In this document: piece by piece, positions 14,595-34,424 of the stretch
Numbering within the stretch: the stretch's first letter is position 1
Layout: each line of letters opens with the position of its first letter
IMG/VR virus record: IMGVR_UViG_3300032323_001287
Location: 1-36,915 of that record
Direction: 5' to 3' (one strand)
Source of the DNA: a virus
Length of the DNA stretch: 36,915 nucleotides
The notes under the pieces: generated by a model
Database searches by the model: none
The model's input: only the letters and a program-made list of their open reading frames with translations
Told to the model about the DNA's origin: nothing
Translations under genes and position numbers: made by a program

Positions 14595-14600
14595 TTTATT

Positions 14601-16196
14601 TTAGAACTCCAGTATAACTTTAATGTCTTCCTTTTGGTTTGCTGATCTTGGAATTGGCGCCCTGTTATCTATGTATATTATTTCTCCGGATTTTACGTTA
14701 TATTCTGCAGAGGAAATTCCGGAAACAAAATTCAAACCTAACTGATATATTCTATTATTTATTGTAGTAGTAATACCATTAAATCCAGTGTCTATAGATA
14801 GAGCAGGACCAATAATAGAACTGCAATTAATTGTTATTCCATATCCAGAAACTGGAGTTGATGTAAATGGAGTTATTTTAAAACCAGATTCACTTGAAGC
14901 TAATCCAGTTGGTTGATAGTATTTTAATACTCCAGTGATAGGATCCCAAGAAGCCACATATCCAACAGCAGTTGACCCTAATCCTACTGTTTGTTTGATA
15001 ACCGAATCTACCGCATACGTAGTATTTGTCGTAACTCCCGCTAACTTTAGAGCTTTAAGTCCACTAGCTAAAGATATATTTAAAAGTTCAACACTACTAT
15101 TAAGAACCGTAGGATTTCTGATTATTCCTACTCTAGCAAAATCATTTCCAATAATAATATCTGGATTTGAATCTAAGGTTTCGTATCTAGAATATAAAAG
15201 AACTCTATATGCTCCCAATTCTCTGTAAACATCATATCCATGACCACCTTTGGGTGGAATAATTACGTTAAAACTTGATTTTGATGTAGTTCCGATACCA
15301 GTATTACTTAATTTACTTAAAGGTCCATTTATTTCACTTCCTGGAGCTCCTGGATAAAACTCTACAGTACCATAAGTGTAATCTGTACCTCCTTCGGTAA
15401 CAAAAATTTCAGAAACTTTTCCAAAAGAATCAATAGTGATAGTTGCTTTACCATCTTTACCATCACCTAATATTGGAACATTGGAAAATGAAGTTGAAAT
15501 TGGTTGATAGTTACTTCCTCTATTATTAATTAAAATAACTTCAATTTTCCCATCAATAGAATTATTTTTGGTAGCAACTGTTTCTCCGGTGACTCCCCAA
15601 TCTTCAGGAACTGGTATATATTCAATTGAATCAAACTTTATTATTTCTGATGGTTTTATTGTATAAAGATATTTCCACAAATATCCATCACCACTCGATC
15701 CTGCAGTTCTTGGTTCAAGATCAATAAAAGTTGGTTGATCATAAGATGGTCTGCCTTTTGGATTTTCTGGGTCAGTTCCATTTTGTAAACAAATATAAAC
15801 TCTAAGATCTTCATTTACAATATAATAATTTGCTTCATATAGACTTGTGTTACCCGTAACAGGAGTAGGATTGTATACATTATAATCATGCCTATACATT
15901 TCATAAGTATTACCACTAACCCATTGAACTTTTCTTACTAGTCTTCTTACATCTTGACTGGTAATTTGTTTCATTGCAATGATACTTTCTTTTATTTGAT
16001 ACTCTTCTTTAAATCCATCTAGAGGCGAAGGAGTATTATTTATCCAAATTGGAGACCCTCCAGATTGAACGCTAGTTGAATTTGGTAATCCAATAAAAGT
16101 ATAATATTTATTAGTAGTATCTCCCACACCAGAAACACTTTTTACAAAGTTTTCTGCATTTAAAATCCTAAATTGGTCAGATATGATGGCAGGCAT
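14601..16196 (-). CDS. 8: Baseplate wedge subunit, gp8-like (531 aa)
   Basis: The N-terminus MPAIISDQFRILNAENFVKS and the segments YIVNEDLRVYICLQNG, DQPTFIDLEPRT and GDGYLWKYLYTIKPSE are characteristic of the gp8 baseplate wedge protein of marine T4-like phages. At 531 residues it is longer than T4 gp8 (334), with an added C-terminal beta region containing GxGY-like units (NNRGSNYQPIS, TEGGTDYTYGTVEF). In T4, gp8 joins gp6, gp7, gp10, gp11, gp25 and gp53 to form the wedge. Here the gene follows the giant gene at the same relative place (6, large protein, 8). The ATG lies 22 bases after the giant gene's stop, and an ACTAAATA late-promoter-like octamer sits between them, so it may also be transcribed on its own. 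Confidence 0.85.
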   Translation of the reverse strand: MPAIISDQFRILNAENFVKSVSGVGDTTNKYYTFIGLPNSTSVQSGGSPIWINNTPSPLDGFKEEYQIKESIIAMKQITSQDVRRLVRKVQWVSGNTYEMYRHDYNVYNPTPVTGNTSLYEANYYIVNEDLRVYICLQNGTDPENPKGRPSYDQPTFIDLEPRTAGSSGDGYLWKYLYTIKPSEIIKFDSIEYIPVPEDWGVTGETVATKNNSIDGKIEVILINNRGSNYQPISTSFSNVPILGDGKDGKATITIDSFGKVSEIFVTEGGTDYTYGTVEFYPGAPGSEINGPLSKLSNTGIGTTSKSSFNVIIPPKGGHGYDVYRELGAYRVLLYSRYETLDSNPDIIIGNDFARVGIIRNPTVLNSSVELLNISLASGLKALKLAGVTTNTTYAVDSVIKQTVGLGSTAVGYVASWDPITGVLKYYQPTGLASSESGFKITPFTSTPVSGYGITINCSSIIGPALSIDTGFNGITTTINNRIYQLGLNFVSGISSAEYNVKSGEIIYIDNRAPIPRSANQKEDIKVILEF

Positions 16197-16215
16197 TTTA
16201 ATTTAGACTTTTTTT

Positions 16216-16223
16216 TATTTAGT
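16216..16223 (-). promoter_or_regulatory. Possible late promoter variant (ACTAAATA)
   Basis: ACTAAATA differs from TATAAATA at the first two positions only and lies 20 bases before the gp8-like ATG. The upstream TAA stop (16221-16219) again occupies bases 3-5. Two more CTAAATA sites occur at gene starts (33350-33357, 34425-34432), which raises the chance that it is functional. Confidence 0.45.
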
Positions 16224-19200
16224 TACTTAAATTGGGTCTTGTTCTAAAAACTTTTGGAGAAGTTGATAAGCCAGTTAAACCATTATCAGTATAAACATCG
16301 AAAGATTTTGATCCAGTTAGTGATAAAGCTCTATTTTGGAAATCATAGAATTTAGACCAACTATATCTACCATAAAAACCATTAGTATTAATACCAGAAA
16401 AAGTTAAAGTTCCTGCATTATAAGTTCCTCTGTCAGAAACAGATACTGATGTACCAGAATCTGGAGCAAAATGACATGTAACAGTGACTATTCCCGCAAA
16501 AGCAGTCGTAACATTTTCAACGATATAAACTCCATCTAAGAAATTAGTTGCTATTCCAATCTTAGAATTCGGATAGTTTGACATTCCTCCCAAGAATGTA
16601 GAGATTCCTATCAAACTTCCATCTGTCTGAACATTACTTTGACTTATAACAAAATAATCGCCCTTTTGAAGTTGGGATGCTGTTACTCCAAAAGTATTTG
16701 GTGATGAATATCCCACACCAAGAGTAGTATTATCATAGGTTTCGGATTTTAATCTAAATTCAATTTTAGGTGATGTGGTTCCTATTCCTGGTGTTCCAGG
16801 TATAAATGTGGTTATTCCAATAATATCTCCATAATCTCCAGTCACTTTAAAGGATTTTACTAATTCAGTTTTAAATGTGTCTGTTTCTATTATTACACTT
16901 GGAATATCATAATCGAAATACCCAAATCCACCATCAGTAATATCGATGGAAGAAACTTGACCACCAACTACAACAGCTTCAGCAGTAGCTCTATGATAAA
17001 CTGGGGTAGATGTTATAATTGTACCCGCATATCCGACAGAAATAAATGTACCTTCAATGCCCAAATCATTTGCAAATAATGAATCATTTAATTGATTTGG
17101 TTGTAAAGTATCCCTATAAGTCCAATCAGACAAATTATAAGAATAGTACATTTTATTCGCAGATGTAATAGCAACATATAAACTATCAAAATAAGTTATG
17201 TTTATAATATTTTCCGAAGAATCAATATTATTAGGCACTAATTGATATAAGTTTCTATTGATAGACTTCAATATTGTTCCACCGTTTCCTACGACAACAA
17301 ATTTATTTCCGTCAAATATGACTTTATTATATTTTTGAAGTACTACACCATTTTGATTAATGTCCCAAGAAGATCCATTGTCTGAGGAGATAACAGTTCC
17401 GTTATTACCAACCGCAACAAAATATTGATTGCCATAAGCGACAGAATTTAAATCTTGAATAACTCCAGAAAATCTACTAATAAATCTTGAAGTTATAATT
17501 CCAGAAGAAGTAAATATAGATCCTCCAGCTCCAACAACAACCCAGCTATCATTTCCGGCACTTATGGAATTAAAAGTTCCATTATAAGTCGTTAGATTAT
17601 AACCAACGACTCCGACTCCTACTAGAGTAATTTCTTCAAAACATGGGATTTGTGTCCAAGAAGTTAAAGTTGAACTGTATCCAACAGCTTGTGCTATTTT
17701 AGCTTTAGATCCTACTGTTAAAAATATATCAGATGATCCAACACTGACCTTCTTAACTGATTTTAAATTAACAGTACTTCCAACACCAACATTACCAGTT
17801 ATCCAGAGTTGACCGTCAAAACTATATGAATATAAAGAACTATTTCCAACAGCTACAAATTGATTTCCATAAGATACTTCATTAAAAATTGATAATGTTG
17901 TTATTCCACTTATATCTGCATATTGCCAATTGTATATTGGATCTTTTTTCTTTATGGAAGATGAAGATATTCTAACTTTTGGAGATAATGTATTTGCATA
18001 TCCAACTCCAGGATTCGTCACAAGTATTGAAGCAACTGTTGATGCTCCAGAAACTGTTGCTTGGCCAGTAGCTGGTGAAATTTCTCTATGTTCAGTAATT
18101 AAAATATCCCTAACATTTTCATTTAATTGATCAAGATCAGAGAATAATGGGAAAGCATTATCAACATAAATTACATCATCTGAAGGTAATATTTTTTTAA
18201 TTATATTTGCTGTAGGAGTTATATTGGATTGTAAATTTGGTCTTGATTTGGAGAATAACGTTCCAGAAATAATCCTGTCCTGTTTTTGTTTATTCCATGT
18301 TAGAGGTCTAAATTTGGCAACATTAGTATTGATTCCTATATTTGAATAAACAAATGTTTCTAATTGATCCGAAGAGGTTAAAGTTTTTACAACACGATCA
18401 AATTGTTCTATATCAAAAGGATCGTTTGCACTTTCTTGAATAACAACACTATCTCCTTCTTTTATAGTTTTTGGTGGAACTATTTCAACAACATCTACAG
18501 AAGATCCTCTGTAATATAGAATTGTACACTTTGAACCTTCTATTGGAGGTTCTGTGAAAACAACTCTACTACCATTAAACGTGTATGAGTATGTTGGATC
18601 TTGTAATACATCATTTATGAATATGAATATATTATTTGTTATATCTAAATCTGTACCTGTTGGGGTTTTTAAATTAATAATCTGATTTTCTCCATTAATT
18701 TCAACCGATAAAGTAAATTTCCTTCTGAATCCATTAAAAGAAGAACTAATGTCATTAAATATAGTGAATTGTCCAGGATAAAATCCGCTGAATGAGTCAG
18801 TCTCTACGGAATCTATGGTTAAAACAAACTCTGTTAATGTTGAACCAGAAACTGTAGGTATTCCAACCACCTTTAATTTATCACCAACTTTGTAACCAAT
18901 TCCAGGATCATCAAACTTATATGAAATAATACTAGATCCAGAACCAACCTCTACGGTTATTTTGGCCTTTTGACCAACTCCGGATGTTCCTCCAGTGTAA
19001 GCTAAACCGAGATTACTATATCCAGTTGGTATTCCAATTACCACGGTTGGTGGTGAGGTTATAGTATATCCAATTCCAGGAGAAACTACCTGTATAGAAG
19101 TTATGATTCCCAAAGTTGTTCCACTTGTACCAACAAGAGCTACTAAACTTGCACCATATCCAATTGTAGACGCCAAACTAACCGAAGGAGCATTTCTATA

Positions 19201-22200
19201 TCCAGAACCTCCACCATTTACTATAACAGATGATATTGTCCCAGATACTGAAACAACTGCATCAGCAGAAGCTACTAATCTAGGTTGATAACCAAATGAA
19301 GTACTTATTGAAACTGCTGAAATTCTTCCTGCAGAAGGAGTTCCACTTAAAAATGCTAAAGAATTTGTTACAGAATTCTCAACTGTCACATCAACTGATG
19401 GAGTTTGGAAAACACCATTAATAAAAATTAATGGATTATTGCTAATATTAGTACTATTATTAACATTATTGAATAATGTTGTAGTAGTGCTTCCATCTAC
19501 CCTAACTGTAAATTGAGTTGCAGCGATGCCAGTAAATGATGTGGAAATATCATCAAGTATAATATTTCTATCTCTGGGTTCATTAGAGTCAATTTGTCTA
19601 GAAAAAGCTCTTCCGGAGAAAGAAGATCTGGTTTCTATTCCAGTTGGTCCAGTTGACCCATATGGTGGTGTACTAAAGAATATAGTGTCTCCAACAATAT
19701 TGAATTTACCTTTAAAGACTGTTCCAGACGTGCCAACGGTATGTATTCCGGAAACTGATCCGAAAGATCCTCTTTCAACATCAAGTTTATTTTGAGTTAA
19801 CAATATATTTTTTATTTCCAAGTATTCACTATTTAATTTAATAACATCACCAACAATTATTGACGATATTCCTGAAGAAATGTTTATTATTGTAGTGGTT
19901 GCTGTAGAAACCGAAGATCCTAAACTAATAGTCAATGGACTTCTTGAGAGTGGTGGTTGAACAATATTATCAACCGCAATAAGTACACTTGGATTTGGAT
20001 TTTTTAAACTTAAACTATGCGTACCAACTCCCAATTGAGTAATGTCTAGAAATACTGAACTAGTTGATAACCCCAATAGTCCAAATTGATTATCGCTCAA
20101 TTTGTAAACGAATACCGTTTCTGGTAACTTATTTGATCCCAAAACTAATGGAGAGAAACTTACATAGTCATTTGTAGATCCACCAAGATATGTTCCAGCT
20201 ATTGATACCACTGATGTTAAAGCATATCCAACTCCACCATTAACAACATTGACAGATGAAACATATCCAGAAGAATTTCTAGAAACGTTAAAAATAGCAC
20301 CATTAGAATCATTTGAAGGAACATTTGAATAAACTTCATTAGCTCTTGTTTGAATTCCAGTTGGACCAGTCTTAGAAATTTTAAATGTTAAGTTATTAGT
20401 TGGTGTTGTACCCCCAATGTAAGTTCCAGCGATAGAAACAGTTTGTCCAACAACATATCCAGTACCACCTTTAGTTGGTAATATAGACGTTGAAAGTGGT
20501 TGCCCAGTGCTTGGTGAATACGTTATGAATACAGTAAATTCAGCTCCAGATCCAGTGGTTGTCAACCCAACAGATTGAACATATGATTTTGATGTAGGTC
20601 CAACAGGACTCAAAACTGTTGAAATTCCAGTTATCGATGTAGTAATTGATACGGAATAACCATTTTCAAGGACAGCGGTTCCATTCAAATTGTTTACTTG
20701 CATTAAAACAGTGGCACCAGTTCCAACATATGAAGTTGTTGCTATTCCTATCGGAGTCCCATTTCCAAAATTATATGTCAATTCTTGACCTGTTTGATAA
20801 TTGTGATTAACAATATTAAATATATTTTGCGAAACGGAAACTATATCAGAATTGGAGGAGTTGAATTCATGTTTAAACAAACTAGTTCCTTTATTTTTAA
20901 GTTTAAAGGTACTTAATCCAACAACTGCTCCTCCTAAAGTTAGTGTTGGATATGTTCTTGATGGTGCAAAGGCAGTTCCTAATCCAATAATACTTGTTAT
21001 TATACCAATATAATTTCCTAAAGACGTTCTGACATCTGCACAGTCTGTTGTGCCATAATTTTCTGTAGGAATTCCAGAAAGACTACTGTTACCTATGGCA
21101 ACTGTTAAAATTCCAACTAAAGTATCGATATTTGTTTGAATATCAATATAAGAAGAAGGACTTGTATTAACTCCAGTTAGTGGGTCAACCTCAATAGTTA
21201 AATCTCTACCATATAACTGATTAGTTATGGCCTGTTTCATAAAATATTTGGAAGTTTCAAATACTAAGATTGATTGAGATTCTTCGCCGACAAGGCCAGT
21301 TGTTAATGCAACTCCTGCTCCATCAAAATATTTTTTAGTATTATAAATTGTATGTTGATTTGTACCATAAGAAATATCTTGTGCCACACCATCAACAATA
21401 TATCCCAAATCTCTAAAACACTTTAATCCTCCAGTAGTATAAGTTCCCGGATTTGCAACAGGCAATGAAGATGTACTTCCAAGAGAGATAATAGTAGTTA
21501 CTATTCCAGCTAAAGTAATGATAGTATTTTGGACATCAGTACAAGCTGCTGTGGAAGTTATTGCAACTGTTACACCTATTCCATAAACTGGTGGTCCTGC
21601 TGTGACTGTGAGATCTTGTATGGTTAATTGATTTCTTACTGCTTTCCTCATTAAAATTGATGCTTCACCAAAAGCATAAATTGACTCTAATTCTTCTCCA
21701 GCTAATCCATTTAAAATGGGCAAACCATTAGCAAAATATTGTAATACAAATTTTCTGGCATATGAATTACCTCCAGTAAATACATCTGTAGAAATAGCAT
21801 CAACGAAATATCCAATATCTCTCTTACATTTTGTTTGTGTAGAAGATATTCCAGGATAAACGGCTACAGTATTATTCCAAGCAGTATCTACAATTTCGGT
21901 TCTATTTTGTTGAATTAATCTATATCCATCATAGTACCTCGATCTAGAATTAGTCTGGAGATCTCCAGGAAAATAAAAATCGGAGTGAGCTACTGCAACT
22001 GCGGCCAAAGATCTGTCCTGTATTTCTCTCTTATTGAGTAGAATGAGATTACGAGCATTCTTATACTTAGTTGAAGACTCATTTAGCGGATCATCAACAA
22101 TACTAAAGTTAAATTGTTGGGAAACTACACTTTGGTATAATGTTGGTGGAGTTTGATTATTGATTATGTACTGACCAATAAATTTTACATAATTATATGC

Positions 22201-25200
22201 AAATAAAGTTTCTTCAGTTTCGTTAATAACATACGATGCTCCAGCATTCCAATAAGCAAGACCCGCTTCTACCGATTTATTATTAGAATTGTATTTCAAA
22301 TCATGAGATACTGCATCGACGATATAACCAACATCTCTTTTACACTTAGTAGCACTGTAGGTTGTACTTAATCCAATATTTGGATAATTAAATTCAACAA
22401 AAGCTACGACTTCTTCTTGAATAAATTCTCTATTTAAATCCAATAAATCCGATGCATCATAATATCTTCCGTTAAAAGTAGTTTCAGTCGTACCAGTAAA
22501 TTGTGAACTGATATCATCTATTCTTATTACTTTATTTGTTTGATTTAAAATATATGGTCTAAGTTCAACTCCTTCAGTGAAGAAAATTTTATCCACAGAT
22601 CCATCTGGATAAGGATCGTCTTCATAAACTAACGCATAGTTTTTTCTAGATGAAAAATCAAGTTTACTGTCAATATTAAACAGAAGAGTAGAATCGCCAC
22701 CCAAAAGTTTTGGTTTCATGTTTATAGATTTTGCAATTCCAACTGAAACTTCAGTCAAAGTTGGTTGCGTAAACAAAGTATAATCAGAAAATTCTTGGAA
22801 TCCGGATGGATGGACAATAGATCTTACAGATTCTCTCCATGTAGAATATGGGACATTAGTTCTTAAAGAATAGGAAAACTTTTGATAATAGAAGTTGTCA
22901 GAAATTCTTTGTTGATAATCATTTAAAATGCCATCACTATTTGTAGAAGTTTCATTACTTCTAGTAGCTCCTAAACTTGAATCAAGTTCAAAATAACTAA
23001 GATATTCCACTACTCCATTAACTTTTGAAGATTCTCCAAATAATGAATCTCCAATTTGAAGATCTCCAACCCCATTAGTTATCCTCATTTGATTTAATTT
23101 ATTATCCCACCCATTTTCCATTATTTTTCCACTAAATTTGGGGGATATTACTTTCTCAGAAGATTGATAGTTAACATCATCTTTTAGTATCATCTCAAAA
23201 GAAGCCATATCTTTTCTATTGACGACAACCCCCCTTCTATCACTATTATAAGTACCAAAACTGCCTGTAGTTATTCCAGACATATCATAAGTTATGGTAT
23301 TATTTGAGGTATTTACGCCTGTAACTGTAAAAAAGGCATAGTTATATGCTGATGAGTTATAATTTGCTAAAGAATTAGTTTCGTTAGTTAATAGACACTT
23401 TTCAATAAAAATTTCATCTCCAAGTGAAAATGGGAATTCGGTTATTGTGGATCCATATCCAGAATTAATCAATGGATAAGACGTAGGAGTATTAAATAAT
23501 TCAATAGTTACATCTGTTCCAGAAATTTGAAATGCATCAATTTCATATCCATTAGAATTATAGATTGGAATTATATCTAATGGAGATGCAAGATTTGTTG
23601 AATTTTTAATTATATCTACAGAAGTTACCGATCCACCATTTATATTTGATTTCAACTCAATATCACCACCATTTTTTACAAATAAAATAGGTGCTGTATT
23701 ATATTTTTTGCCAGAATTTACAATTTTTATTGTATCAATTGTTCTTATATTTTTTATTCCACAAACTATAGTGGAACTAAGTTGTGCAGATAAAGTTGGA
23801 TCTGTTGGATAATCAAATCCATCTTTTATTCTCTTTAAAGATTCAATTTTTCCGATATCATTTGATGTTAATTTGAGGATAGCATTATTACCAGATTCGG
23901 ATAAAATATTTGAAATAGATGGAATCTTCAAATATCCTCTACCACCAAAATTAATTTTTATATTTTCTATAGGACCATTTGCTGTTTTGGATGTAGTTGT
24001 ATAACTTATGTTTGCGGTTGGTAATATTTGTAATTCAGTTGATGTTAAATTCTTTGTAGAATTAAAGGAGAAAATATTGTCATCATCAATTAAATCTATT
24101 TTAATTTTTGTGTTCAATTGATGATCTATAATATCAATTTTATTAAATGAAGAAACTTCTTTATCTACGGATAGTTGATTTTTAGATTGATCGAGAGGGC
24201 TTAAAGAATTTAATTTATAATATAAAACTTTTGGAAAATTAGTTTTATTTGTATCAAGACTTACAAAAGAGTTTGGTTGCCCAGGAATTCCTGACCTAGT
24301 TATAGCAAATCCCTCTTCAAAAAGTCCTATAATTTCTACCTTTCTAGTGAAATTACTATCAACATAAAAATCTAAAATCATATCCGATAAGGAATCATCA
24401 GATACATCAAAAGTTATTAATGATCCATTATATGGTGTTATTTGTGGATTAATAATTTTTATTGATTGAGTTCCGCCTGACGAAAGAGACGTGATATCAA
24501 TTTCTTTGGATTTGTACACATCATCTTCATATTCACAAAAAGATATTTTGTTAATGTCTCTCTTCAAAATAAAATATGATTTTCCATTTGATAGTCCACC
24601 TAGAGGATTATTTGCAAAATAAATGACTTTTGTTCCATTCTTTATGTTTTCAAAACTAGTATGTTGTATATGATTTTTAGAAATAGAAACGTTTCCATTA
24701 TTAAATGTATATTCTCCTATTAAAATTTTTCTATTAATTTTATCAAAGAAAACCTTATAAGTTTCGGTTAAAGTACTCAAGATTTTCAATTGTATTTCAT
24801 CTCCAACCAATAATCCATGACTATCGGATGTTGTCACAATCCCAGATACTCTTTTTACACTACCTAAAAGATTTGAATTCTGCGTTGTAAGTGAATGAGC
24901 TGCCCCAATTACCCCAAATGATTGATCTAAATCCCAAAATTCCACGCAACTCAAATCTGTCCCGATACCAGAAGAAGTTGTATATCCTACAGTCGATAAT
25001 CCAATATAATCTTGTCCCAAATTTACAGCATAAACAGTTTGATTATTGAGAATTACAAAAGATACTGCAGAACCAACGGTATTAACATACAGAGAAGTTC
25101 CACCCAATCCAGCATTATATGTTAAAGGCTGTCCAGTATAAAACTTATGTCCTGGTAAATAAATTGATTTTGGTGGTATAAATCTGGATTCAAAGGAAGT

Positions 25201-28200
25201 AGTGCCTAAACCAACTACAATCCTAGTAGATCCAGAAGATCCAGTACCTACAGATTCTTTTGGATTAAAAAATGTAACTGTATTGGGAATAAAAATTCCA
25301 GGTATTGGTTTTTTTGTCGTAAAAGTGAATTTTTTAGGTAAAAGTATGACATCATCAATTCCAGTAGTATGAACTCCAGTATTAACAATTCTATTGACAT
25401 AAAATCCTGATCTTTCAGGAGAAATTTCGGTTATTAATAATCTTTCTGAACCTATCCCAATAAAATCATTTACAGAAAATCCAGAAATATCTTTAACTTT
25501 TATAAAAGTAGATATTCCAGTAACAACTTGTGCAGGAATATCTTCTAATAATTGGACTGCTCTACTATTAACATTAATATTATATAAACCTTCTAATTCA
25601 ATTGCAGATATTGTGGAAATTCCAGAGATGACAACTGGTTCTAAATCAGAAAACTCGTGAGGTGTATCGAATTGTGCTTCAATTTTATTGAATTTTGGAA
25701 TAAAAACTACATCCGAAAAAGTTTTTGATTGTATAGATATATCTTCAATGTTCTTTCCTTTCAATTTTGATACAACAATGTTAGCACCAGTTCCACCAGA
25801 ACCTTCATTATCTAATATTACCAGATCATTAACTTTATAATTATCTCCTGGAGAAAATATTGAGACATTTTGAATCTTACCAGTATTGAGCTTTGTAATT
25901 TCAAATTCTTGTTTATAGTTTTCAGAAACATTATCTATAAGTTCGTATGAAGATCTGGAATAATTTAAATAATATGGTCCAATATTTCTTGTTACTTCAT
26001 TAGTGAAAAATTCAGAATCTTGGTTATATACTGGTAAGAAATTTTCTTCAAGCGGTATATTATAAAAAGTTGGACCAACAATATATGGATACTTATTTTT
26101 AGCGACTTTAGAAATATCAATGTCAACACTATAAAAATAAGCATAAACCCCATCTGGATATTCTGGGGTAACACAGAATCTACCATTGTGTTCGTCTAGA
26201 TCTCCAGAACCATCATAAACATAATCATCAACAAAATACCCAGATGGGAAACTTGGTGGACGAATACTTGGGTCTACAATTGGTTTCAATACATAACTAG
26301 TTTTTATTTGTCTTATAGATCCTCCAGAAGGAGTATCATATCCGTATGGGCCATAAATTGGATTTCCGTCATAAGCATATCCAAGTATAGGTGAATGTCT
26401 TAACTCACCAGAAGTTTCTTTATCAAATGCAGTAAAATTATCAGAAAGTTGATATCTAAGTTTTTTAGGAATGTAATACGAACAAACTTGAAGTCCGAGA
26501 TTACGATTTTTACTGTCTAACAGAACAGAATCATCATTTTCGTTAATATAATTCTGTAATTTTACTACTTGATCAACTTTCCATTGTTTTAGATTTGCCA
26601 AAAATTTTGCATTTTTGCCTCTATTTTCAAGTTTTAAAATTGTATTAGATACACCATATCCAACTCCACCATCTATTATATTAACTTGAGATAATTTTCC
26701 TTGAGAATCAATAATGGGTTCAATCTTAGCAAAATCTCCATCACCAGTAATAATAATATCAGAATCTTCTCTATATCCATCTCCACCATTTGTAATTTTA
26801 ACGTCAACTATTTTTCCATTTACAACGATTGGAATTAAAGAAGCTGGTGACTTTATACTAGATATTCCAACATTTGGTCTTCTATGAAAATTTATTATGT
26901 CAGTGCATCCATAAGAAACTCCTGGAGATTCAATGTATACATCATCTATTTGTCCCAAAATTATAGGTTTTAACGTTGGAGATATTATGGAAGTAGATCC
27001 TAAAGCAGAAGTAGCTTCTACACTGATAGTAATAGGTGGATATCCAATAGTATGCGTTCCAACACCCAAAGATTCAAATTTTATATATTTGTTATTTACA
27101 TAATTATCAGTACTTAAACTAGAAATGCCGACCCCAGCAAAAGAAAGTTTAAATCTATTATCATCTAAAACTTTAACATAATAATAATGAGATGTATTCA
27201 ACCCCGAAATTGATGTATTTGTAGTTGAATATGTAACAAGTTCAACATCTGCAAATCCATGTTTTGGAGCAAAAATATAAGAATCAAAAGTATTAATGCC
27301 TGTAGTATTATTATCAAACGATAAAATAGATGGAACTTTTATTTTTCTATTTGAGTATCCTTGTCCGGGATCTTTAACATAAATTTCTGTTATTGTATTT
27401 TTACTTTTTAATGTACTGAAAAAATGAAATCCAGAACTAACACCAACAATATTAACTTCGTTAGTTTTTGTTAGAGCATTTTCTTTACTACTATAAAGTT
27501 TAACTTTGGTTTCACTTACTATCCCAACAAAATAAGTTGATCCATTAATTAGTCCAGGAACATCTAAATTTGTATTTGAATTGTATATTACTTCTTCGCC
27601 ATCTTCAAAAGAAATATTTGTTAAGAACGAAATGCTATTACTTGGTTCATCAACGTTTATATCCGATTTAAATCCATAAGACAATCTAGATTTGACTAGA
27701 TTTGACTCCAATGAACATCCCTGACCATTACCTCCAAAAATATTAATTTTTGGTTTAGTTTGATAACCTATTCCTGGAGAAATTATTTTTATTCTTTCAA
27801 CTTTACCAGATAAATTTACATGGGCTTTTGCACCAGAACCCAATGAATCAACAATTTCAATATTAGGTGGATTTACAACATCATATCCAGACCCCCTGTT
27901 GGTTACTTCTATGGAATCTATGGATCCATAAAAAATATTTTCATCAAAATATGTTGCGGATAGTAGTTCAACTCCATTTGCCAATAATCCTACTTGTTTA
28001 TTATTTGTAGTTCTTTTATTAATATCATCTGAAGCTGATACTTTTGCTGGAGTGAAAGGAAATTTTTTAAGTATTTTTTGATGCTCTAAAGATTTATTTT
28101 CAAATCCACCGATAACTATAGTATCTGATGAAATTCCAGATTTTGCCTCAAGATATTTTTTAGAAAAAATATCAGATTTACTGAAAGATAATTTTATATT

Positions 28201-30096
28201 ATTAGAATCAATAACAGTTACATAATAATATCCAGTTGAAATTCCTGAAGAATTAAAATCATATGTGTCATAGTAAACTAGATTTCCATTTACATAATTA
28301 TGGTCTTGAACATAAAAAGAGGATGTGAATCCCTGAAATTCTGCAGGTCTACTTGGTTGTACAAATGTCTGTATTGTTCTTTTATCGTCAGTTACATAAA
28401 TTGTATAATTTGGCAATCCAGAAGATGTTACATAAAAATATTGATTATCTTTACTTAGGTAAGTATTTTGAACTCCCGTAGGAAATTTTGAAATATTTGG
28501 AAAATAATTAATATTATGATTCGCTTTGTAAATTTTTCTACGTATAAATTTAATTTTATTTACATCTATACCTGTCTGTAAAATTTGTATTAATATTTTG
28601 TTAGAATATTTTTTAACCTGATCTGCTGCATCATAATCAATATCTATAATATCTGCTTCAACCTGATTAGAATTTTCATCAAAAAGTAGTATCCTTTCTT
28701 GTTTATAAGCAGAAATTTTATCATATAAGGTTATTCTAAATTTGTTAGATGTTTCCTGTTCATATACCTGAATGTCATGTTTTGTCGGAATATTGTATAT
28801 CCAAGGATTAAATCTAACATTATCTAGTAGATTTTTACCAAAAGAGGACAATTTAATTTTATCTCCAACCCTCAAATTATTTGTATTTTTATAATCTATA
28901 TCTTGAATGACATTTATAACTCTGAATTCTACTTTTGATGTATTTCCAAATCCAATATAACTATAAGCAAATTTATCTTCTACTAAAGGAAGGCCATAAT
29001 TTAACTTTTTGGTTACTCCACTTACTCCCAAAAACTGATTAGAAGTCTTATTAACATAAGAAAGATCTATAAAGTCGGAATTTTCTGGTTTGACCAAAAT
29101 TCTACCAGATTGAGCAAATCCGACAGTTGAATCTACTAGAATATTATCAGCACCTATCTGAACCTCTTCCAATATTTTTGTTTGACCAGAAGCTTGAAAA
29201 GTTCCAGAGATAGAAGAGGAGTCTAAAGAAATTTCATATAAATTCTTGCCCGCAACGGGTCTGAATTCAACATTAAAAATTGATCCGCTTGCAGTTGAAA
29301 TTCCTATATTTTGGAATAAAAAATTACCTTTAATATTGACGGGATCTCCTCCAGAAATTTTTTCAACAAGAATATTACTAGTAACAAAAAAAGTATCAGA
29401 AGAAGGTTTTAATGTAAAATCATTAGGTTTTACTACATCAATATCACTACCATATAAAACTTTGAATAAAAACTTATAAGAAGAATCAGTGCCCTTTGAA
29501 ATATAAAAATTTCTTGCGTTTAACAGTACATTCTCTACAGATACATTTTCATCAAAATTTCTATTTTCAAATCCAAGGAAAAATTCGTATTTAAAATTTT
29601 CGTAAAATTTAAGTAAGAATAAATTACTTAAATTTATAACTGATGCTCCTTCAGAATGTTCATCTGCATTAGTCTCAGAAAAATTTAAAAATTCAGAATT
29701 TTCAAAAGACTCTATAGCATCAATTCCAGAAAAACCCCTAATACATCCAAAAAATGTTGTATTGTTTTTGGATGTATATGTAATTATTTCATCGTCAATT
29801 TTCAACAAACCATATGTATCTGGCCATCCAATTGTACTCTCTACAACTAGAGTATCATCATAAGCTAATATGTCATTAGTTAATGTAGTTTCGGTTGTTA
29901 AATTTGATGGACTAAATTGATCTATATTCTTATATTTTTTTATATTTAAAGCTAGATCTAATGTTCCAGACTGATGTTCTAAAGACTTATAATACTGTCT
30001 TAGAAACTCAACGAATAGAGGAGAATCTTCGTTTAAAAATTGAGGAATTTGGGATTCCAGGATAGAATCGATTTTTACTCTTTTAATTTCTGACAT
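16219..30096 (-). CDS. Giant modular baseplate-region structural protein (4625 aa)
   Basis: The gene occupies the gene 7 position between gp6 and gp8. The start MSEIKRVKIDSILESQIPQF, with EFLRQYYKSLEHQSG, matches the N-terminus of the large wedge-region protein of marine T4-like phages; T4 gp7 itself is about 1030 residues. Modules in order: an IDDEIITY...RG unit (100-130); many 'YYYVKVLDDNRFKLSF' units; GxGY beta repeats, 17 counted from about residue 720 to 4390; a YHYH-like domain (1233-1322); three CKRDxGY helical modules (2585, 2757, 2893); two DDIS.SF.G modules (about 3510, 3780); a propeller-like Asp-box region (about 4075-4365); and a C-terminal YGRYSWSKFYDFQNRA cap. No transmembrane segment is evident. 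The ATG is 1 base after the gp6 stop, so it is co-translated. A wedge or fibre-scaffold role is inferred. Confidence 0.85.
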   Translation of the reverse strand: MSEIKRVKIDSILESQIPQFLNEDSPLFVEFLRQYYKSLEHQSGTLDLALNIKKYKNIDQFSPSNLTTETTLTNDILAYDDTLVVESTIGWPDTYGLLKIDDEIITYTSKNNTTFFGCIRGFSGIDAIESFENSEFLNFSETNADEHSEGASVINLSNLFLLKFYENFKYEFFLGFENRNFDENVSVENVLLNARNFYISKGTDSSYKFLFKVLYGSDIDVVKPNDFTLKPSSDTFFVTSNILVEKISGGDPVNIKGNFLFQNIGISTASGSIFNVEFRPVAGKNLYEISLDSSSISGTFQASGQTKILEEVQIGADNILVDSTVGFAQSGRILVKPENSDFIDLSYVNKTSNQFLGVSGVTKKLNYGLPLVEDKFAYSYIGFGNTSKVEFRVINVIQDIDYKNTNNLRVGDKIKLSSFGKNLLDNVRFNPWIYNIPTKHDIQVYEQETSNKFRITLYDKISAYKQERILLFDENSNQVEADIIDIDYDAADQVKKYSNKILIQILQTGIDVNKIKFIRRKIYKANHNINYFPNISKFPTGVQNTYLSKDNQYFYVTSSGLPNYTIYVTDDKRTIQTFVQPSRPAEFQGFTSSFYVQDHNYVNGNLVYYDTYDFNSSGISTGYYYVTVIDSNNIKLSFSKSDIFSKKYLEAKSGISSDTIVIGGFENKSLEHQKILKKFPFTPAKVSASDDINKRTTNNKQVGLLANGVELLSATYFDENIFYGSIDSIEVTNRGSGYDVVNPPNIEIVDSLGSGAKAHVNLSGKVERIKIISPGIGYQTKPKINIFGGNGQGCSLESNLVKSRLSYGFKSDINVDEPSNSISFLTNISFEDGEEVIYNSNTNLDVPGLINGSTYFVGIVSETKVKLYSSKENALTKTNEVNIVGVSSGFHFFSTLKSKNTITEIYVKDPGQGYSNRKIKVPSILSFDNNTTGINTFDSYIFAPKHGFADVELVTYSTTNTSISGLNTSHYYYVKVLDDNRFKLSFAGVGISSLSTDNYVNNKYIKFESLGVGTHTIGYPPITISVEATSALGSTSIISPTLKPIILGQIDDVYIESPGVSYGCTDIINFHRRPNVGISSIKSPASLIPIVVNGKIVDVKITNGGDGYREDSDIIITGDGDFAKIEPIIDSQGKLSQVNIIDGGVGYGVSNTILKLENRGKNAKFLANLKQWKVDQVVKLQNYINENDDSVLLDSKNRNLGLQVCSYYIPKKLRYQLSDNFTAFDKETSGELRHSPILGYAYDGNPIYGPYGYDTPSGGSIRQIKTSYVLKPIVDPSIRPPSFPSGYFVDDYVYDGSGDLDEHNGRFCVTPEYPDGVYAYFYSVDIDISKVAKNKYPYIVGPTFYNIPLEENFLPVYNQDSEFFTNEVTRNIGPYYLNYSRSSYELIDNVSENYKQEFEITKLNTGKIQNVSIFSPGDNYKVNDLVILDNEGSGGTGANIVVSKLKGKNIEDISIQSKTFSDVVFIPKFNKIEAQFDTPHEFSDLEPVVISGISTISAIELEGLYNINVNSRAVQLLEDIPAQVVTGISTFIKVKDISGFSVNDFIGIGSERLLITEISPERSGFYVNRIVNTGVHTTGIDDVILLPKKFTFTTKKPIPGIFIPNTVTFFNPKESVGTGSSGSTRIVVGLGTTSFESRFIPPKSIYLPGHKFYTGQPLTYNAGLGGTSLYVNTVGSAVSFVILNNQTVYAVNLGQDYIGLSTVGYTTSSGIGTDLSCVEFWDLDQSFGVIGAAHSLTTQNSNLLGSVKRVSGIVTTSDSHGLLVGDEIQLKILSTLTETYKVFFDKINRKILIGEYTFNNGNVSISKNHIQHTSFENIKNGTKVIYFANNPLGGLSNGKSYFILKRDINKISFCEYEDDVYKSKEIDITSLSSGGTQSIKIINPQITPYNGSLITFDVSDDSLSDMILDFYVDSNFTRKVEIIGLFEEGFAITRSGIPGQPNSFVSLDTNKTNFPKVLYYKLNSLSPLDQSKNQLSVDKEVSSFNKIDIIDHQLNTKIKIDLIDDDNIFSFNSTKNLTSTELQILPTANISYTTTSKTANGPIENIKINFGGRGYLKIPSISNILSESGNNAILKLTSNDIGKIESLKRIKDGFDYPTDPTLSAQLSSTIVCGIKNIRTIDTIKIVNSGKKYNTAPILFVKNGGDIELKSNINGGSVTSVDIIKNSTNLASPLDIIPIYNSNGYEIDAFQISGTDVTIELFNTPTSYPLINSGYGSTITEFPFSLGDEIFIEKCLLTNETNSLANYNSSAYNYAFFTVTGVNTSNNTITYDMSGITTGSFGTYNSDRRGVVVNRKDMASFEMILKDDVNYQSSEKVISPKFSGKIMENGWDNKLNQMRITNGVGDLQIGDSLFGESSKVNGVVEYLSYFELDSSLGATRSNETSTNSDGILNDYQQRISDNFYYQKFSYSLRTNVPYSTWRESVRSIVHPSGFQEFSDYTLFTQPTLTEVSVGIAKSINMKPKLLGGDSTLLFNIDSKLDFSSRKNYALVYEDDPYPDGSVDKIFFTEGVELRPYILNQTNKVIRIDDISSQFTGTTETTFNGRYYDASDLLDLNREFIQEEVVAFVEFNYPNIGLSTTYSATKCKRDVGYIVDAVSHDLKYNSNNKSVEAGLAYWNAGASYVINETEETLFAYNYVKFIGQYIINNQTPPTLYQSVVSQQFNFSIVDDPLNESSTKYKNARNLILLNKREIQDRSLAAVAVAHSDFYFPGDLQTNSRSRYYDGYRLIQQNRTEIVDTAWNNTVAVYPGISSTQTKCKRDIGYFVDAISTDVFTGGNSYARKFVLQYFANGLPILNGLAGEELESIYAFGEASILMRKAVRNQLTIQDLTVTAGPPVYGIGVTVAITSTAACTDVQNTIITLAGIVTTIISLGSTSSLPVANPGTYTTGGLKCFRDLGYIVDGVAQDISYGTNQHTIYNTKKYFDGAGVALTTGLVGEESQSILVFETSKYFMKQAITNQLYGRDLTIEVDPLTGVNTSPSSYIDIQTNIDTLVGILTVAIGNSSLSGIPTENYGTTDCADVRTSLGNYIGIITSIIGLGTAFAPSRTYPTLTLGGAVVGLSTFKLKNKGTSLFKHEFNSSNSDIVSVSQNIFNIVNHNYQTGQELTYNFGNGTPIGIATTSYVGTGATVLMQVNNLNGTAVLENGYSVSITTSITGISTVLSPVGPTSKSYVQSVGLTTTGSGAEFTVFITYSPSTGQPLSTSILPTKGGTGYVVGQTVSIAGTYIGGTTPTNNLTFKISKTGPTGIQTRANEVYSNVPSNDSNGAIFNVSRNSSGYVSSVNVVNGGVGYALTSVVSIAGTYLGGSTNDYVSFSPLVLGSNKLPETVFVYKLSDNQFGLLGLSTSSVFLDITQLGVGTHSLSLKNPNPSVLIAVDNIVQPPLSRSPLTISLGSSVSTATTTIINISSGISSIIVGDVIKLNSEYLEIKNILLTQNKLDVERGSFGSVSGIHTVGTSGTVFKGKFNIVGDTIFFSTPPYGSTGPTGIETRSSFSGRAFSRQIDSNEPRDRNIILDDISTSFTGIAATQFTVRVDGSTTTTLFNNVNNSTNISNNPLIFINGVFQTPSVDVTVENSVTNSLAFLSGTPSAGRISAVSISTSFGYQPRLVASADAVVSVSGTISSVIVNGGGSGYRNAPSVSLASTIGYGASLVALVGTSGTTLGIITSIQVVSPGIGYTITSPPTVVIGIPTGYSNLGLAYTGGTSGVGQKAKITVEVGSGSSIISYKFDDPGIGYKVGDKLKVVGIPTVSGSTLTEFVLTIDSVETDSFSGFYPGQFTIFNDISSSFNGFRRKFTLSVEINGENQIINLKTPTGTDLDITNNIFIFINDVLQDPTYSYTFNGSRVVFTEPPIEGSKCTILYYRGSSVDVVEIVPPKTIKEGDSVVIQESANDPFDIEQFDRVVKTLTSSDQLETFVYSNIGINTNVAKFRPLTWNKQKQDRIISGTLFSKSRPNLQSNITPTANIIKKILPSDDVIYVDNAFPLFSDLDQLNENVRDILITEHREISPATGQATVSGASTVASILVTNPGVGYANTLSPKVRISSSSIKKKDPIYNWQYADISGITTLSIFNEVSYGNQFVAVGNSSLYSYSFDGQLWITGNVGVGSTVNLKSVKKVSVGSSDIFLTVGSKAKIAQAVGYSSTLTSWTQIPCFEEITLVGVGVVGYNLTTYNGTFNSISAGNDSWVVVGAGGSIFTSSGIITSRFISRFSGVIQDLNSVAYGNQYFVAVGNNGTVISSDNGSSWDINQNGVVLQKYNKVIFDGNKFVVVGNGGTILKSINRNLYQLVPNNIDSSENIINITYFDSLYVAITSANKMYYSYNLSDWTYRDTLQPNQLNDSLFANDLGIEGTFISVGYAGTIITSTPVYHRATAEAVVVGGQVSSIDITDGGFGYFDYDIPSVIIETDTFKTELVKSFKVTGDYGDIIGITTFIPGTPGIGTTSPKIEFRLKSETYDNTTLGVGYSSPNTFGVTASQLQKGDYFVISQSNVQTDGSLIGISTFLGGMSNYPNSKIGIATNFLDGVYIVENVTTAFAGIVTVTCHFAPDSGTSVSVSDRGTYNAGTLTFSGINTNGFYGRYSWSKFYDFQNRALSLTGSKSFDVYTDNGLTGLSTSPKVFRTRPNLSN
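17005..17880 (-). other. Propeller-like Asp-box region in giant protein
   Basis: Residues about 4075-4365 contain repeated units of the type YGNQ[FY][FV]AVGN..[ST], e.g. FVAVGNSS, YFVAVGNNGTVISSDNGSSW, KFVVVGNGGTILKS and FISVGYAGTIITS. One is a full Asp-box (SSDNGSSW at about residue 4232), and variants such as YSFDGQLW, YSSTLTSW and YSYNLSDW occur where the others should be. This pattern is known from BNR/Asp-box beta-propellers, including Ycf48-like and sialidase-like folds. About six blades can be counted. No sialidase catalytic residues are recognisable, so a binding rather than enzymatic role is more likely. Confidence 0.6.
20985..22345 (-). other. Triplicated CKRDxGY helical modules in giant protein
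   Basis: Three modules start with Cys-[KF]-R-D-[VIL]-G-Y-[IF]-V-D-[AG]-[VI] at residues about 2585, 2757 and 2893. Each continues into a predicted helical segment with Tyr, Phe and Ala positions (GLAYWNAGASYVI; ARKFVLQYFANG; NTKKYFDGAG). Interleaved shorter helical units follow (CTDVQNTIITLAGIVTTII; CADVRTSLGNYIGIITSII). They stand out as mainly alpha-helical in an otherwise beta-rich protein. I recall the CKRDxGY motif from marine phage structural proteins; its function is not known to me. Confidence 0.65.
26131..26400 (-). other. YHYH-like domain in giant protein
   Basis: Residues 1233-1322 contain LGYAYDGNPIYGPYGY and, about 65 residues later, LDEHNGRF followed by GVYAYFYSVD. These are the two hallmark blocks of the YHYH domain, except that the name-giving Tyr-His-Tyr-His is replaced by Tyr-Ala-Tyr-Phe-Tyr. 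The fold is probably kept while the histidine site is lost. Confidence 0.75.
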
Positions 30097-30097
30097 T

Positions 30098-31969
30098 TTA
30101 TCTCGTATACTGACCGTTTAGATAACTTGAAGTTGGAACATATTGTGTAGCTGAAATATTTTCACCAGAAGTAATTGTATCTTCAATCATAGTTATTATT
30201 GATTTTTGTATATCAACTTGAAGATACAAATCTTTCAGTCCAATAACATCATTAGATTCTGGAATGGCTTGAACTTCAATTACTCCATTTTCTGTAATTG
30301 GATCTACTATATTTACCACATCTAAAAGTATCTCTCCAGTTTTATAATTAATAGTTCCGGCATTAGCTTTAATGATTGTTGGAACATTATTATCTACTTT
30401 AAAAAAGAATATTTTTCCAAAATTTTCTTGAGTTTGAATATCAGCCATGTAAACAGTTTCAGAAATACCAGATATTTTAAATCCGGTTGATTTTACAGAG
30501 TATCCATCTTTTTTGATATGAATTTTATTTCCAAAACATAACTCATATGTAGCTAAACTATTTAACACCGGAATCAAATCCCTTCTCATTTTAACTTTTG
30601 TTATGTTTGATGTAACTGCTTTGTCAGCGTCATCTATCAATCCTACCACTTTACTATATTTAAATCTTCCACCAAAACTATTAACATCAGAAGATTTTGA
30701 ATATGTTGTTAAAGTATTTAAAATTTTACCTCTAATGGATTCTGGTCGTGTAGATCTATTTACGTTGTAATATACAGAAGCGTCTATTTCAACATATAAG
30801 TATGATAAGTCAATAATTTCAGGTTGAATTCCTGCTATTGAATATTGTTTTAATGATCTTGAAATTTCTTGTTTGGTCAGAGATGATAAAAATGTTCCAT
30901 TTCTTGGTTTTATTGAAATGAAAACTTTACCATACTCTGGTGGATCCAACTCTTCTCCACCATATGCAGTGACAGAATCTACATTTGAGTAAATATATGG
31001 AATAAGTCCCTTATAATCATTTGCTGTAACTGCTCTATATTGAGAAGCATATACTCTTGGAGCTAAATATTTGATAGAATCAATGTTTTCTATTTCATCT
31101 CCGTTTTGAGATGTAGATTGTGTAATTGGTAAAGAAACTCCTGACGTAATTTCTTCAAGATTATTATCCTTTAGTATTCCAGCAAAAGTAAAATTGGATG
31201 CACCATTACCAGAAGTACCGTTCGTTACAATATAACTAACTTCAATTCTACTTCCATCGGGCGGCCTTTTTCCTAAAATATCATCTCCAAATCTAATTTC
31301 ATATTTTTGATCAGCAACTTCTTGAATCAGGAATATTCTAGAGTCTTTGTTAATATTTAAAATATTATCATAAATTGTATAAACTTCTGTTACTTCATCA
31401 GTAACCCTAACTCTAATTGTAGTTGTATCGATATTAGGATTTGGTAAAATAAATCTTTGATTTGGTTGAGAGTAATTCATTATAAAGGTACTAGTCAAGT
31501 ACCTACCTTCATAGATTTCTAAATTATTAAAATTTGCAAATCCATCATTTTCTATAGGAGTAGTAAAATTTTCTGGAATTGAAAATATAAAATTACCTCC
31601 AGTTACAGCACCTAATGCGATTGTTCCTGCATAAACAGTGACTGTTCTAGAATTATTATTATTTCTCATATCTACTGAGAAAGTAATCTTAGCTCTTGAA
31701 GATCTTCTAGATCTAGGGACATACCCAATGTTACGAGCTAAGGATACAACGTTTTCTCTCAGAGTTGCACTATCAAGAAAAGTTTCATTTACTGCCATAT
31801 TTGTATTATAGGCAGTGATATAACTGTTATAAGCTAAAAGATCGATTAGTGTAGAGAAGTTCGATCCTTCAAAATCAAAATCTGTAAAATTACTATTTGA
31901 ACGCAAGTAATCCTTGATCTGCGTTCTCAGATCGTTAAAGTCTAAATTTGTAAATTGATTAAATGACAT
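30098..31969 (-). CDS. 6: Baseplate wedge subunit gp6
   Basis: The protein is 623 residues, close to T4 gp6 (660). The N-terminus (FTNLDFNDLRTQIKDYLRSN, LLAYNSYITAYNTNMAVNE, ARNIGYVPRSRRSSRA) is a textbook gp6/baseplate J-like start, and RFGDDILGKRPPDGSRIEVS (about residue 230) and APRVYASQYRAVTANDYKGL (about 310) match the core of the family. In T4, gp6 dimers form the continuous inner ring that connects the six wedges around the hub. The ATG overlaps the TAA of gp25 (TAATG), and the giant gene starts 1 base after its own stop, so all three are translationally coupled and expected in defined ratios. Confidence is high from multiple family blocks and gene order. Confidence 0.95.
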   Translation of the reverse strand: MSFNQFTNLDFNDLRTQIKDYLRSNSNFTDFDFEGSNFSTLIDLLAYNSYITAYNTNMAVNETFLDSATLRENVVSLARNIGYVPRSRRSSRAKITFSVDMRNNNNSRTVTVYAGTIALGAVTGGNFIFSIPENFTTPIENDGFANFNNLEIYEGRYLTSTFIMNYSQPNQRFILPNPNIDTTTIRVRVTDEVTEVYTIYDNILNINKDSRIFLIQEVADQKYEIRFGDDILGKRPPDGSRIEVSYIVTNGTSGNGASNFTFAGILKDNNLEEITSGVSLPITQSTSQNGDEIENIDSIKYLAPRVYASQYRAVTANDYKGLIPYIYSNVDSVTAYGGEELDPPEYGKVFISIKPRNGTFLSSLTKQEISRSLKQYSIAGIQPEIIDLSYLYVEIDASVYYNVNRSTRPESIRGKILNTLTTYSKSSDVNSFGGRFKYSKVVGLIDDADKAVTSNITKVKMRRDLIPVLNSLATYELCFGNKIHIKKDGYSVKSTGFKISGISETVYMADIQTQENFGKIFFFKVDNNVPTIIKANAGTINYKTGEILLDVVNIVDPITENGVIEVQAIPESNDVIGLKDLYLQVDIQKSIITMIEDTITSGENISATQYVPTSSYLNGQYTR

Positions 31970-32367
31970 TAGACTCTAGTTGGTTGTAATATGAAATCTA
32001 CTGTTTGAGTTGCAATTGGCAATCCAATAATGTCATAGCTTATGATAATATTTAATTCATTAGTATATTCTGGATAGTTAACTTCAACGGAAGATACTCT
32101 TATTCTTGGTTCAAAATTTTTAAGTAAAGTTTCAATGTCAATTTGCAAACTTCTTGCTAAAGGGACTGATTGAAGTTCAAATACAGAATTTTCAATATCA
32201 GTCCCTAAGAGAGAATTAAAAAATCTTTCCCCAATTCTAGTTCTAACTAAATTGACTACAGACTTTTTAATAGCATCAGCATCATTTAATGATAAAATAT
32301 CATTAGTTACAGGATTTCTAGTAAATGTAAGACTAATATCTTTAAATTTTCTAGAAATCCTGTTCAT
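31969..32367 (-). CDS. 25: Baseplate wedge subunit gp25 (GPW/gp25 family)
   Basis: The protein has 132 residues from the ATG at 32367, the same length as T4 gp25. Family signatures are visible: the N-terminal FKDISLTFTRNP, the helix DADAIKKSVVNLVRTRIGER, the EPRI-type motif NFEPRIRVSSVEV, and the C-terminal strand block LNIIISYDI. gp25 binds the gp6 ring and helps initiate sheath assembly. A GTG codon lies directly before the ATG (GTGATG). I choose the ATG because the sequence then matches the family start and length. An AATAAATA late promoter ends only about 16 bases upstream, which leaves a very short leader without a good Shine-Dalgarno. The gene opens the wedge operon 25-6-giant-8-DUF4815. 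Confidence 0.95.
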   Translation of the reverse strand: MNRISRKFKDISLTFTRNPVTNDILSLNDADAIKKSVVNLVRTRIGERFFNSLLGTDIENSVFELQSVPLARSLQIDIETLLKNFEPRIRVSSVEVNYPEYTNELNIIISYDIIGLPIATQTVDFILQPTRV

Positions 32368-32382
32368 CACTCAAACTAAGGG

Positions 32383-32390
32383 TATTTATT
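32383..32390 (-). promoter_or_regulatory. T4-type late promoter (AATAAATA) for the wedge operon
   Basis: AATAAATA on the minus strand fits NATAAATA and lies 16 bases before the chosen gp25 ATG. It sits in the short gap after the stop of the 79-residue gene. If used, the mRNA leader would be only about 10 bases. Confidence 0.65.
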
Positions 32391-32407
32391 ATATGTATAA
32401 GACCACT

Positions 32408-32647
32408 TTACCACTTTTTACCATAGGTTGGTTCAGTTCCATATGACCAATCATCATAATCATCATCGTTTCTGATTCTCTCATGAAGATCAGTTTGCTT
32501 TTTGAGATCATGTTTTGGTGCAGTATCGTGCATAATCTCTTGAATGATTCTATTTTTATTTGGTTTTTGGTAATCTGTGACTAAACTTGTGGTTCCCCAC
32601 GTCTGATACATGTAATTAGTATCACGGTCAACTGGTAAATTAGACAT
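32408..32647 (-). CDS. Small hydrophilic conserved-type phage protein (79 aa)
   Basis: I do not recognise a function. The protein is polar and charged: the N-terminus MSNLPVDRDTNYMYQTWGT is followed by a basic middle (YQKPNKNR, KHDLKKQTDLHERIR) and an acidic, aromatic tail (NDDDYDDWSYGTEPTYGKKW). No membrane segment or signal is visible, and it is probably partly disordered. The start is secure: AGGAG (32658-32654) lies 6 bases before the ATG, but that site is partly covered by a 7-bp hairpin (32657-32673), which may tune translation. It lies directly upstream of gp25, so a baseplate or assembly role is possible from position alone. Confidence 0.7.
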   Translation of the reverse strand: MSNLPVDRDTNYMYQTWGTTSLVTDYQKPNKNRIIQEIMHDTAPKHDLKKQTDLHERIRNDDDYDDWSYGTEPTYGKKW

Positions 32648-32656
32648 TTTTAGCTC

Positions 32657-32673
32657 CTGATTTGTTAAATCAG
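32657..32673 (-). promoter_or_regulatory. Hairpin overlapping the ribosome binding site of the 79-aa gene
   Basis: On the minus strand CTGATTT-AAC-AAATCAG forms a perfect 7-bp stem with a 3-base loop, and its last two bases are the first two bases of the AGGAG Shine-Dalgarno. There is no T run after it, so it is not an intrinsic terminator. It is better read as a structure that may limit ribosome access or protect the 5' end of a processed message. Confidence 0.5.
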
Positions 32674-32690
32674 AACTTTTTACGGGGTTG

Positions 32691-33158
32691 CTATCCCGAA
32701 ATTTCGTCTTCTGTTACCGATTCGTAGTCGTCACCAAGTATCTTTTTGAGATAATCCTCGTTCCAGTAGGTATAATACTCAGTTTTTGCTAATTTTTTCC
32801 TAATTTTGCTCAATTTTATCTTCGATTGGCACAAAATTAAGTTAAATCTCTTATTATTTGTCTGAATTCCGTTGATAAACGTTGGTTGAGAGGCGCAATC
32901 CTCAAAAAATGAGTAATATTGGAACTTTTCATTATATATTTCTACCCATTTTTTGACTTGATCGAGACTCCAAAAGTCATCTACAATAAAAACGATGACA
33001 TCATACCCAGGTTCGGGTACAATATCATCGATTGGACATTCAATAATTTTAGTTTTAGAACCAGAAGCATAAGGACATACAGAGAATCCTCCAAGTTCTT
33101 CTCTTTCTTTGGCTACTTCCTTAGCCCATTCTAAAATATACGCTTCTTTCTCGTTCAT
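32691..33158 (-). CDS. Uncharacterised phage protein with CPYA motif (155 aa)
   Basis: The N-terminal 25 residues are helical and charged (EAYILEWAKEVAKEREELGG), followed by FSVCPYASGSKTKIIECPID. Further on are YDVIVFIVDDFWSLDQVKKW, TFINGIQTNNKRFNLILCQS and a C-terminal YYTYWNEDYLKKILG. The order of a W-x(n)-LCPFA-like motif and an N..Y.tL.L-like block is reminiscent of DUF1415 proteins, but this is a weak resemblance made by eye. Four cysteines are present. AGGA lies about 6 bases upstream of the ATG, which begins 2 bases after the stop of the 53-residue gene, so the two are coupled. The function is unknown. Confidence 0.7.
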   Translation of the reverse strand: MNEKEAYILEWAKEVAKEREELGGFSVCPYASGSKTKIIECPIDDIVPEPGYDVIVFIVDDFWSLDQVKKWVEIYNEKFQYYSFFEDCASQPTFINGIQTNNKRFNLILCQSKIKLSKIRKKLAKTEYYTYWNEDYLKKILGDDYESVTEDEISG

Positions 33159-34359: not shown

Positions 34360-34424
34360 AAAAATAGAATTGCAACGTTAATATTCTACCACCACAAGTC
34401 AATTCATGCAATGGTTCTTAAATT

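Follow-up and report, generated by a model that had tools for sequence, protein, structure and literature searches.

The window analyzed here is an entire virus record of 36.9 kb from IMG/VR, in which a frame on the minus strand at 16219–30096 starts with ATG and runs for 4625 codons without an internal stop. This frame was assigned to gp7, a baseplate wedge protein, by tblastn to cyanophage gp7 and by PHROG 2885 ('baseplate wedge subunit'), which matches residues 5–2560 with an E value of 0 in a profile search. Three further baseplate wedge genes accompany it on the same strand, with gp25 (31969–32370; PF04965, E = 1e-12) and gp6 (30098–31969; PHROG 219, E = 1e-200) upstream and gp8 (14601–16196; PHROG 438, E = 2e-158) downstream, giving the gene order 25-6-7-8. 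With 4625 residues against 1032, the protein is about 4.5 times as long as T4 gp7, in agreement with an earlier note on this DNA. Because gp6 stops one base ahead of the gp7 start codon (TAA-A-ATG), the translational coupling of gp7 to gp6 that the same note had claimed is plausible. Also beside the baseplate genes, the region 33607–35234 holds a weakly glycosyltransferase-like gene of PHROG 1574, with a DNA identity of 76–82% to S-SCSM2R, S-SSM7, and others, together with a hexapeptide transferase gene. A partial gene at 1–1245 carries the major tropism determinant N-terminal domain (PF18454) and likely encodes a receptor-binding tail protein.

By tblastn, the N-terminal 2500 residues of gp7 matched 470 phage records, and in 93 the match extended over 80% or more of the query; cyanophages made up nearly all of these, besides a few phages labeled Methylophilales or Actinomycetia. 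Alignment of cyanophage, Methylophilales-phage, and other marine gp7s revealed a conserved N-terminal wedge core at about residues 1–440 (28777–30096, minus strand, as are all the gp7 features below). A profile built from the first 500 residues of 27 sequences was searched against the PDB with hmmsearch and matched T4 gp7 (5hx2/5iv5; 5hx2_A, E = 2.6e-6) over only ~30 residues, the segment fYxsKGtdxSYKfLFKvLYgedvev (29431–29520) being homologous to T4 residues 729–758. Since the first-500 profile aligns to this part of T4 gp7, the T4-like core is placed at the N-terminus of the window gp7. The profile match and the gene order both uphold the position of gene 7 proposed earlier, and the window gene encodes the gp7 of a T4-type myovirus, uncultured and cyanophage-like. 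The whole protein, when compared with the PDB by phmmer, gave zero matches. Although T4 gp7 has been said to be absent from cyano- and pelagimyophages (PMC7029224), the profile match, short as it is, speaks against that absence at the level of sequence. The virion proteome of S-CREM2 includes baseplate wedge proteins in the gp7 gene position (PMC10665884). Thus, the window protein resembles T4 gp7 in being encoded between gp6 and gp8 and in the homologous segment, but differs in its greater length, in the N-terminal location of its T4-like core, and in its added domains, for which the searches made gave no match in T4 gp7.

Giant gp7 proteins are each encoded by a single gene in P-SSM2 (5195 aa), S-SCSM2R (5172 aa), and S-CAM9 (3884 aa), and the window gp7 is an ordinary member of the PHROG 2885 family, with relatives of 5172–5195 aa. 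The S-SCSM2R protein (PHROG 2885, 'baseplate wedge initiator') shares with it the gene position, the N-terminal core, the backbone, and a three-domain cassette described below, and aligns to it along the whole length at ~52% identity. Because S-SCSM2R shows the same architecture in one gene at this identity, the frame is no assembly join of several genes, an artifact that the earlier note had considered, and the single genes of the same architecture in S-CAM9 and P-SSM2 argue likewise. Such a join would find a precedent in S-SSM7, where the gp7 homolog (14001–33095) consists of three genes of 3007, 340, and 3001 aa, split at a point corresponding to window gp7 residue ~3431; this arrangement is a natural fission or insertion, and the probability that the window frame is artificial is negligible.

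The backbone of the window gp7 comprises residues 1–2540 and ~3319–4618, the latter part (16243–20142) being common to S-CAM9 gp7 and the third S-SSM7 piece. Residues 2541–3056 (20929–22476) form a removable cassette, in which three domains with a predicted phycobiliprotein fold follow one another in tandem, as delineated by alignments to relatives, profile search, and model. At its boundary, the alignment to the S-SSM7 and S-CAM9 proteins, which lack the cassette in contrast to the window gp7, skips from residue 2540 to 3056 or 3021. The presence or absence of this 515-residue cassette among relatives confirms that gp7 is a mosaic, as had been proposed. At least six module types had been listed in the earlier note, and we found a YHYH domain (residues 1220–1327, 26116–26439; PF14240, E = 6.6e-24), 14 GxGY sites, three CXRD modules, and two DDIS sites; the Asp-box type is weak, its propeller-like repeats at about residues 4140–4370 (16987–17679) containing a single strict match, at 4237. 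The module type described there as 'CKRDxGY helical' is real and present in three copies, but its identity with the phycobiliprotein fold, as predicted here, had been overlooked.

The three domains were located by profile search at residues 2542–2656 (22129–22473), 2718–2828 (21613–21945), and 2852–2965 (21202–21543), and are designated CXRD domains 1, 2, and 3 after the motif that each contains, namely CKRD at residues 2585–2588 (22333–22344), CKRD at 2757–2760 (21817–21828), and CFRD at 2893–2896 (21409–21420), with Cys2585, Cys2757, and Cys2893, respectively. CXRD is a chromophore motif, in which Cys binds the A ring of the bilin and Arg and Asp hydrogen-bond it (PMC10151467). The motif is intact in all three window modules, whereas the S-SCSM2R protein keeps it in one of three.

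Singly or in arrays, the CXRD module also occurs in other giant tail proteins. The cassette matched 292 phage records, of which 291 were named cyanophages and one was a 'marine virus'; among isolates, the module is known only from cyanophages, and none was detected in the SAR11 relative HTVC008M. The module is also present on seven contigs that were binned with MAGs of Planctomycetaceae, Rhodobacteraceae, or other proteobacteria, in arrays of up to ~12 diverged CXRD-type copies; at least one of these contigs has a gp7-like, a gp8-like, and a further baseplate-like frame in a row, and they are probably phage contigs. In a viral structure library, the names of proteins matching the fold were limited to tail, structural, lectin- or collagen-type, and uncharacterized protein. 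ORF 218 of S-PM2d, a 'very large hypothetical protein' that was mutated during long co-culture with Synechococcus (PMC9910659), is the module protein beside cpeT if its numbering equals that of S-PM2 p218. According to the S-PM2 entry AJ630128, 16 tRNA genes lie within the p218 gene; ARAGORN, run on positions 160500–176500, found zero tRNAs in p218 and nine at 2883–4803 of the locus, upstream of it, and the tRNA coordinates of the entry look wrong.

The relation of the module to phycobiliproteins was evident from several sequence comparisons. A profile of 40 modules gave 33 PDB matches at E < 10, all of them phycocyanin alpha chains (best E = 0.0017), and the alignment spans the bilin site Cys84-Arg86-Asp87. 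The Pfam family Phycobilisome (PF00502) was matched by 13 of the 40 modules, with a best value of 6e-5, and any other family by at most two. Modules in S-PM2 and in one further phage exceed the PF00502 cut-off; the window modules lie below it, domain 2 (E = 7.4e-4) reaching 19.9 bits against a gathering score of 22.2 bits, and the module is therefore called a likely distant homolog and not a member. In the reverse direction, the best 20 matches of a phycocyanin fragment among 50,697 phage records were cyanophage tail or structural proteins (best E = 1e-3). Moreover, hhalign of the modules with nine phycobiliproteins gave P = 2.4e-6, and the trimmed score of 28.9 compares with 0.8 for the reversed profile and with at most 14.4 over 150 column shuffles. 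On masking of the eight motif columns, the score fell to 6.1, within the shuffle range, which shows that the sequence signal is the motif; we therefore dropped the claim of a profile similarity beyond it. Since the sequence homology rests on the motif, support for the whole fold comes from predicted models.

An AlphaFold model of the cassette, computed with no templates and with no phycobiliproteins in the alignment, had a pLDDT of 82 and a pTM of 0.80. When it was compared with the PDB by Foldseek, most of the best 50 matches were phycobiliproteins, with probabilities of 0.99–1.00 and TM scores of 0.59–0.77, and other helical proteins scored probabilities of at most 0.2; the E values were weak, 0.07 for the best phycobiliprotein. 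In a control model based on 13 modules that all lack CXRD, well modeled only over ~110 residues, the best 50 Foldseek matches were all phycobiliproteins, indicating that the fold call is independent of the motif. Helices precede domain 2 in the cassette model and might correspond to the N-terminal X-Y helices of alpha-beta pairing. The window modules thus share with phycobiliproteins and bilin-binding globins (PF00502, phycocyanin alpha, BBAGs) the predicted fold, the CXRD motif, and the local sequence of the bilin-attachment helix, whereas they differ in being arranged as tandem repeats within a structural protein of the virion, in falling below the Pfam cut-off, and in that their bilin binding is putative. 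Collectively, it is likely that the cassette domains are homologous to phycobiliproteins in identity and fold, as judged from the profiles and the models. Our searches of the open-licence literature turned up no earlier description of phage virions containing a phycobiliprotein-like domain.

Conservation of the motif was analyzed in 57 module clusters formed at 60% identity. Of these, 44 contain Cys and all 44 also have Asp; among the 13 clusters without Cys, five still have Asp. Arg accompanies Cys in 29 of the 44 and occurs in one of the 13, that is, in a single one of the 30 Arg-bearing clusters Cys is missing. Shared ancestry inflates these counts, but the pattern is that of one unit, made up of Cys, Asp, and also Arg, which is either retained or lost as a whole. 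All three residues are missing from seven of the 57 clusters, in which the module is still kept. In a set of 57 modules taken from isolates, 47 retain Cys and 50 retain Asp, but only 21 retain Arg, and many modules of cluster-A phages have CxDD or CKTD in place of CXRD. Because 48 of 123 modules contain no Cys other than that of CXRD, an obligatory disulfide within the module is an unlikely reason for its conservation, a disulfide being conceivable in the module type with two Cys residues.

The distribution of the module was found to parallel that of CpeT, a T-type bilin lyase. Among 24 isolates, modules occur in 17, and CpeT was detected by HMM in 13 of these and in none of the seven without modules. 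When two more of the 17, listed in Table 3 of PMC3037559, are counted, CpeT is present in 15 of them; the co-occurrence gives a Fisher p of 1.0e-4 (9.5e-4 with HMM alone), uncorrected for phylogeny. The two module-bearing isolates without CpeT, S-SKS1 and S-T4, have one module each, lacking CXRD. Among near-complete IMG/VR relatives of the window, G001 and G002 carry both module and CpeT, and G004 has one module and no CpeT; in the window itself and in partial relatives, CpeT was looked for and none was found. Full-length CpeT was present in 66 records and strong modules in 72, from nearly the same phages. Moreover, in ~20 phage types, a full-length cpeT lies within ~5 kb of a module-bearing giant tail gene on the same strand, as in S-PM2 (cpeT at 163952–164479, module gene from 165928) and Syn1 (cpeT ending at 20462, a 4017-aa gene starting at ~21183), and also in S-RIM32, S-RIM44, S-CAM1, S-CAM3, S-CAM4, Sf-FR1, S-H9-1, S-H9-2, S-RSM4, S-WAM2, ACG-2014e/h/i/j, and AG-345-P14; S-SCSM2R is an exception to this adjacency. 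The bilin reductases (pebS/pcyA) were rejected as genes tracking the modules, P-SSM2 and S-SSM7 having PF05996 genes and no modules, and therefore any bilin would in many cases come from the host. In both phages a bilin reductase gene is present while CpeT and the CXRD modules are lacking, and their bilin genes therefore need another explanation.

We propose that the CXRD domains derive from a cyanobacterial biliprotein and that, after their capture, they multiplied and moved between gp7 and the other giant tail proteins, in which they would build an all-helical array on the outer side of the baseplate or fiber. More tentatively, the module Cys might bind a linear tetrapyrrole, with either the phage CpeT or a lyase of the host attaching it before virions are assembled; such a pigment could make the domain stiffer or join in host contact. 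The hypothesis of bilin loading draws support from the retention of Cys and Asp (and Arg) as a unit and from the linkage of the modules to a bilin lyase, and is opposed by the degenerate motifs of many phages. Hence a tail loaded with bilin at the CXRD Cys, that is, a tail that is itself a biliprotein, is a possibility that we regard as less likely than not; equally tentative is the proposal that the phage CpeT attaches bilins, made by the host or by phage ho1/pebS/pcyA, to CXRD domains in baseplate and fiber proteins of the phage itself.

That the domains are descendants of phycobiliproteins which now carry no bilin, acting as a helical spacer or in receptor binding with CXRD kept for structural reasons, has about an even chance of being correct and is at present favored as somewhat more likely than loading. 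This agrees with the CxDD and CKTD variants, with the clusters that keep the module after losing all three residues, with the matching fold predicted for modules devoid of CXRD, and with the lack of a lyase near the window gp7; against it stand the joint retention or loss of Cys, Asp, and Arg, which a purely structural role does not predict, and the co-occurrence and adjacency of CpeT with the modules. The concentration of the sequence signal in ~8 columns could be taken to mean that an unrelated helical phage domain converged on a bilin-binding segment, its CXRD match being coincidental, but we regard this as quite improbable in view of the fold match that persists in models without the motif, the probabilities of at most 0.2 reached by unrelated helical proteins, and the confinement of the modules to cyanophages among annotated phages. 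The view that gp7 is simply a giant mosaic wedge protein serving as a baseplate-to-fiber scaffold, with nothing further of note, accords with its identity and architecture and with a known family in which giant gp7s are common; it leaves the CXRD cassette unexplained and seems unlikely as a full account, but it may hold for the remainder of the protein.

A review describes cyanophage CpeT as a lyase for the phycobiliproteins of the host (PMC10452541), and the role of cyanophage bilin genes 'remains a mystery', Prochlorococcus hosts having no intact phycobilisomes (PMC3037559); in the open-licence literature, we found no proposal of tail domains as a CpeT substrate. The module, which occurs in the same phages as CpeT and in tail genes adjoining it, provides a candidate phage-encoded acceptor for the phage lyase, by which the question of the bilin genes becomes directly testable with purified virions. 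It is also a defined structural target in giant cyanophage tail proteins annotated only as tail or structural. If the proposal is true, a photosynthetic antenna fold has been reused as a building block of the virus particle, and the phage bilin lyase would work for the virion and not for light harvesting by the host. The three pigment-protein-like domains in gp7 may thus be a reason why many such phages carry a pigment-attaching enzyme.
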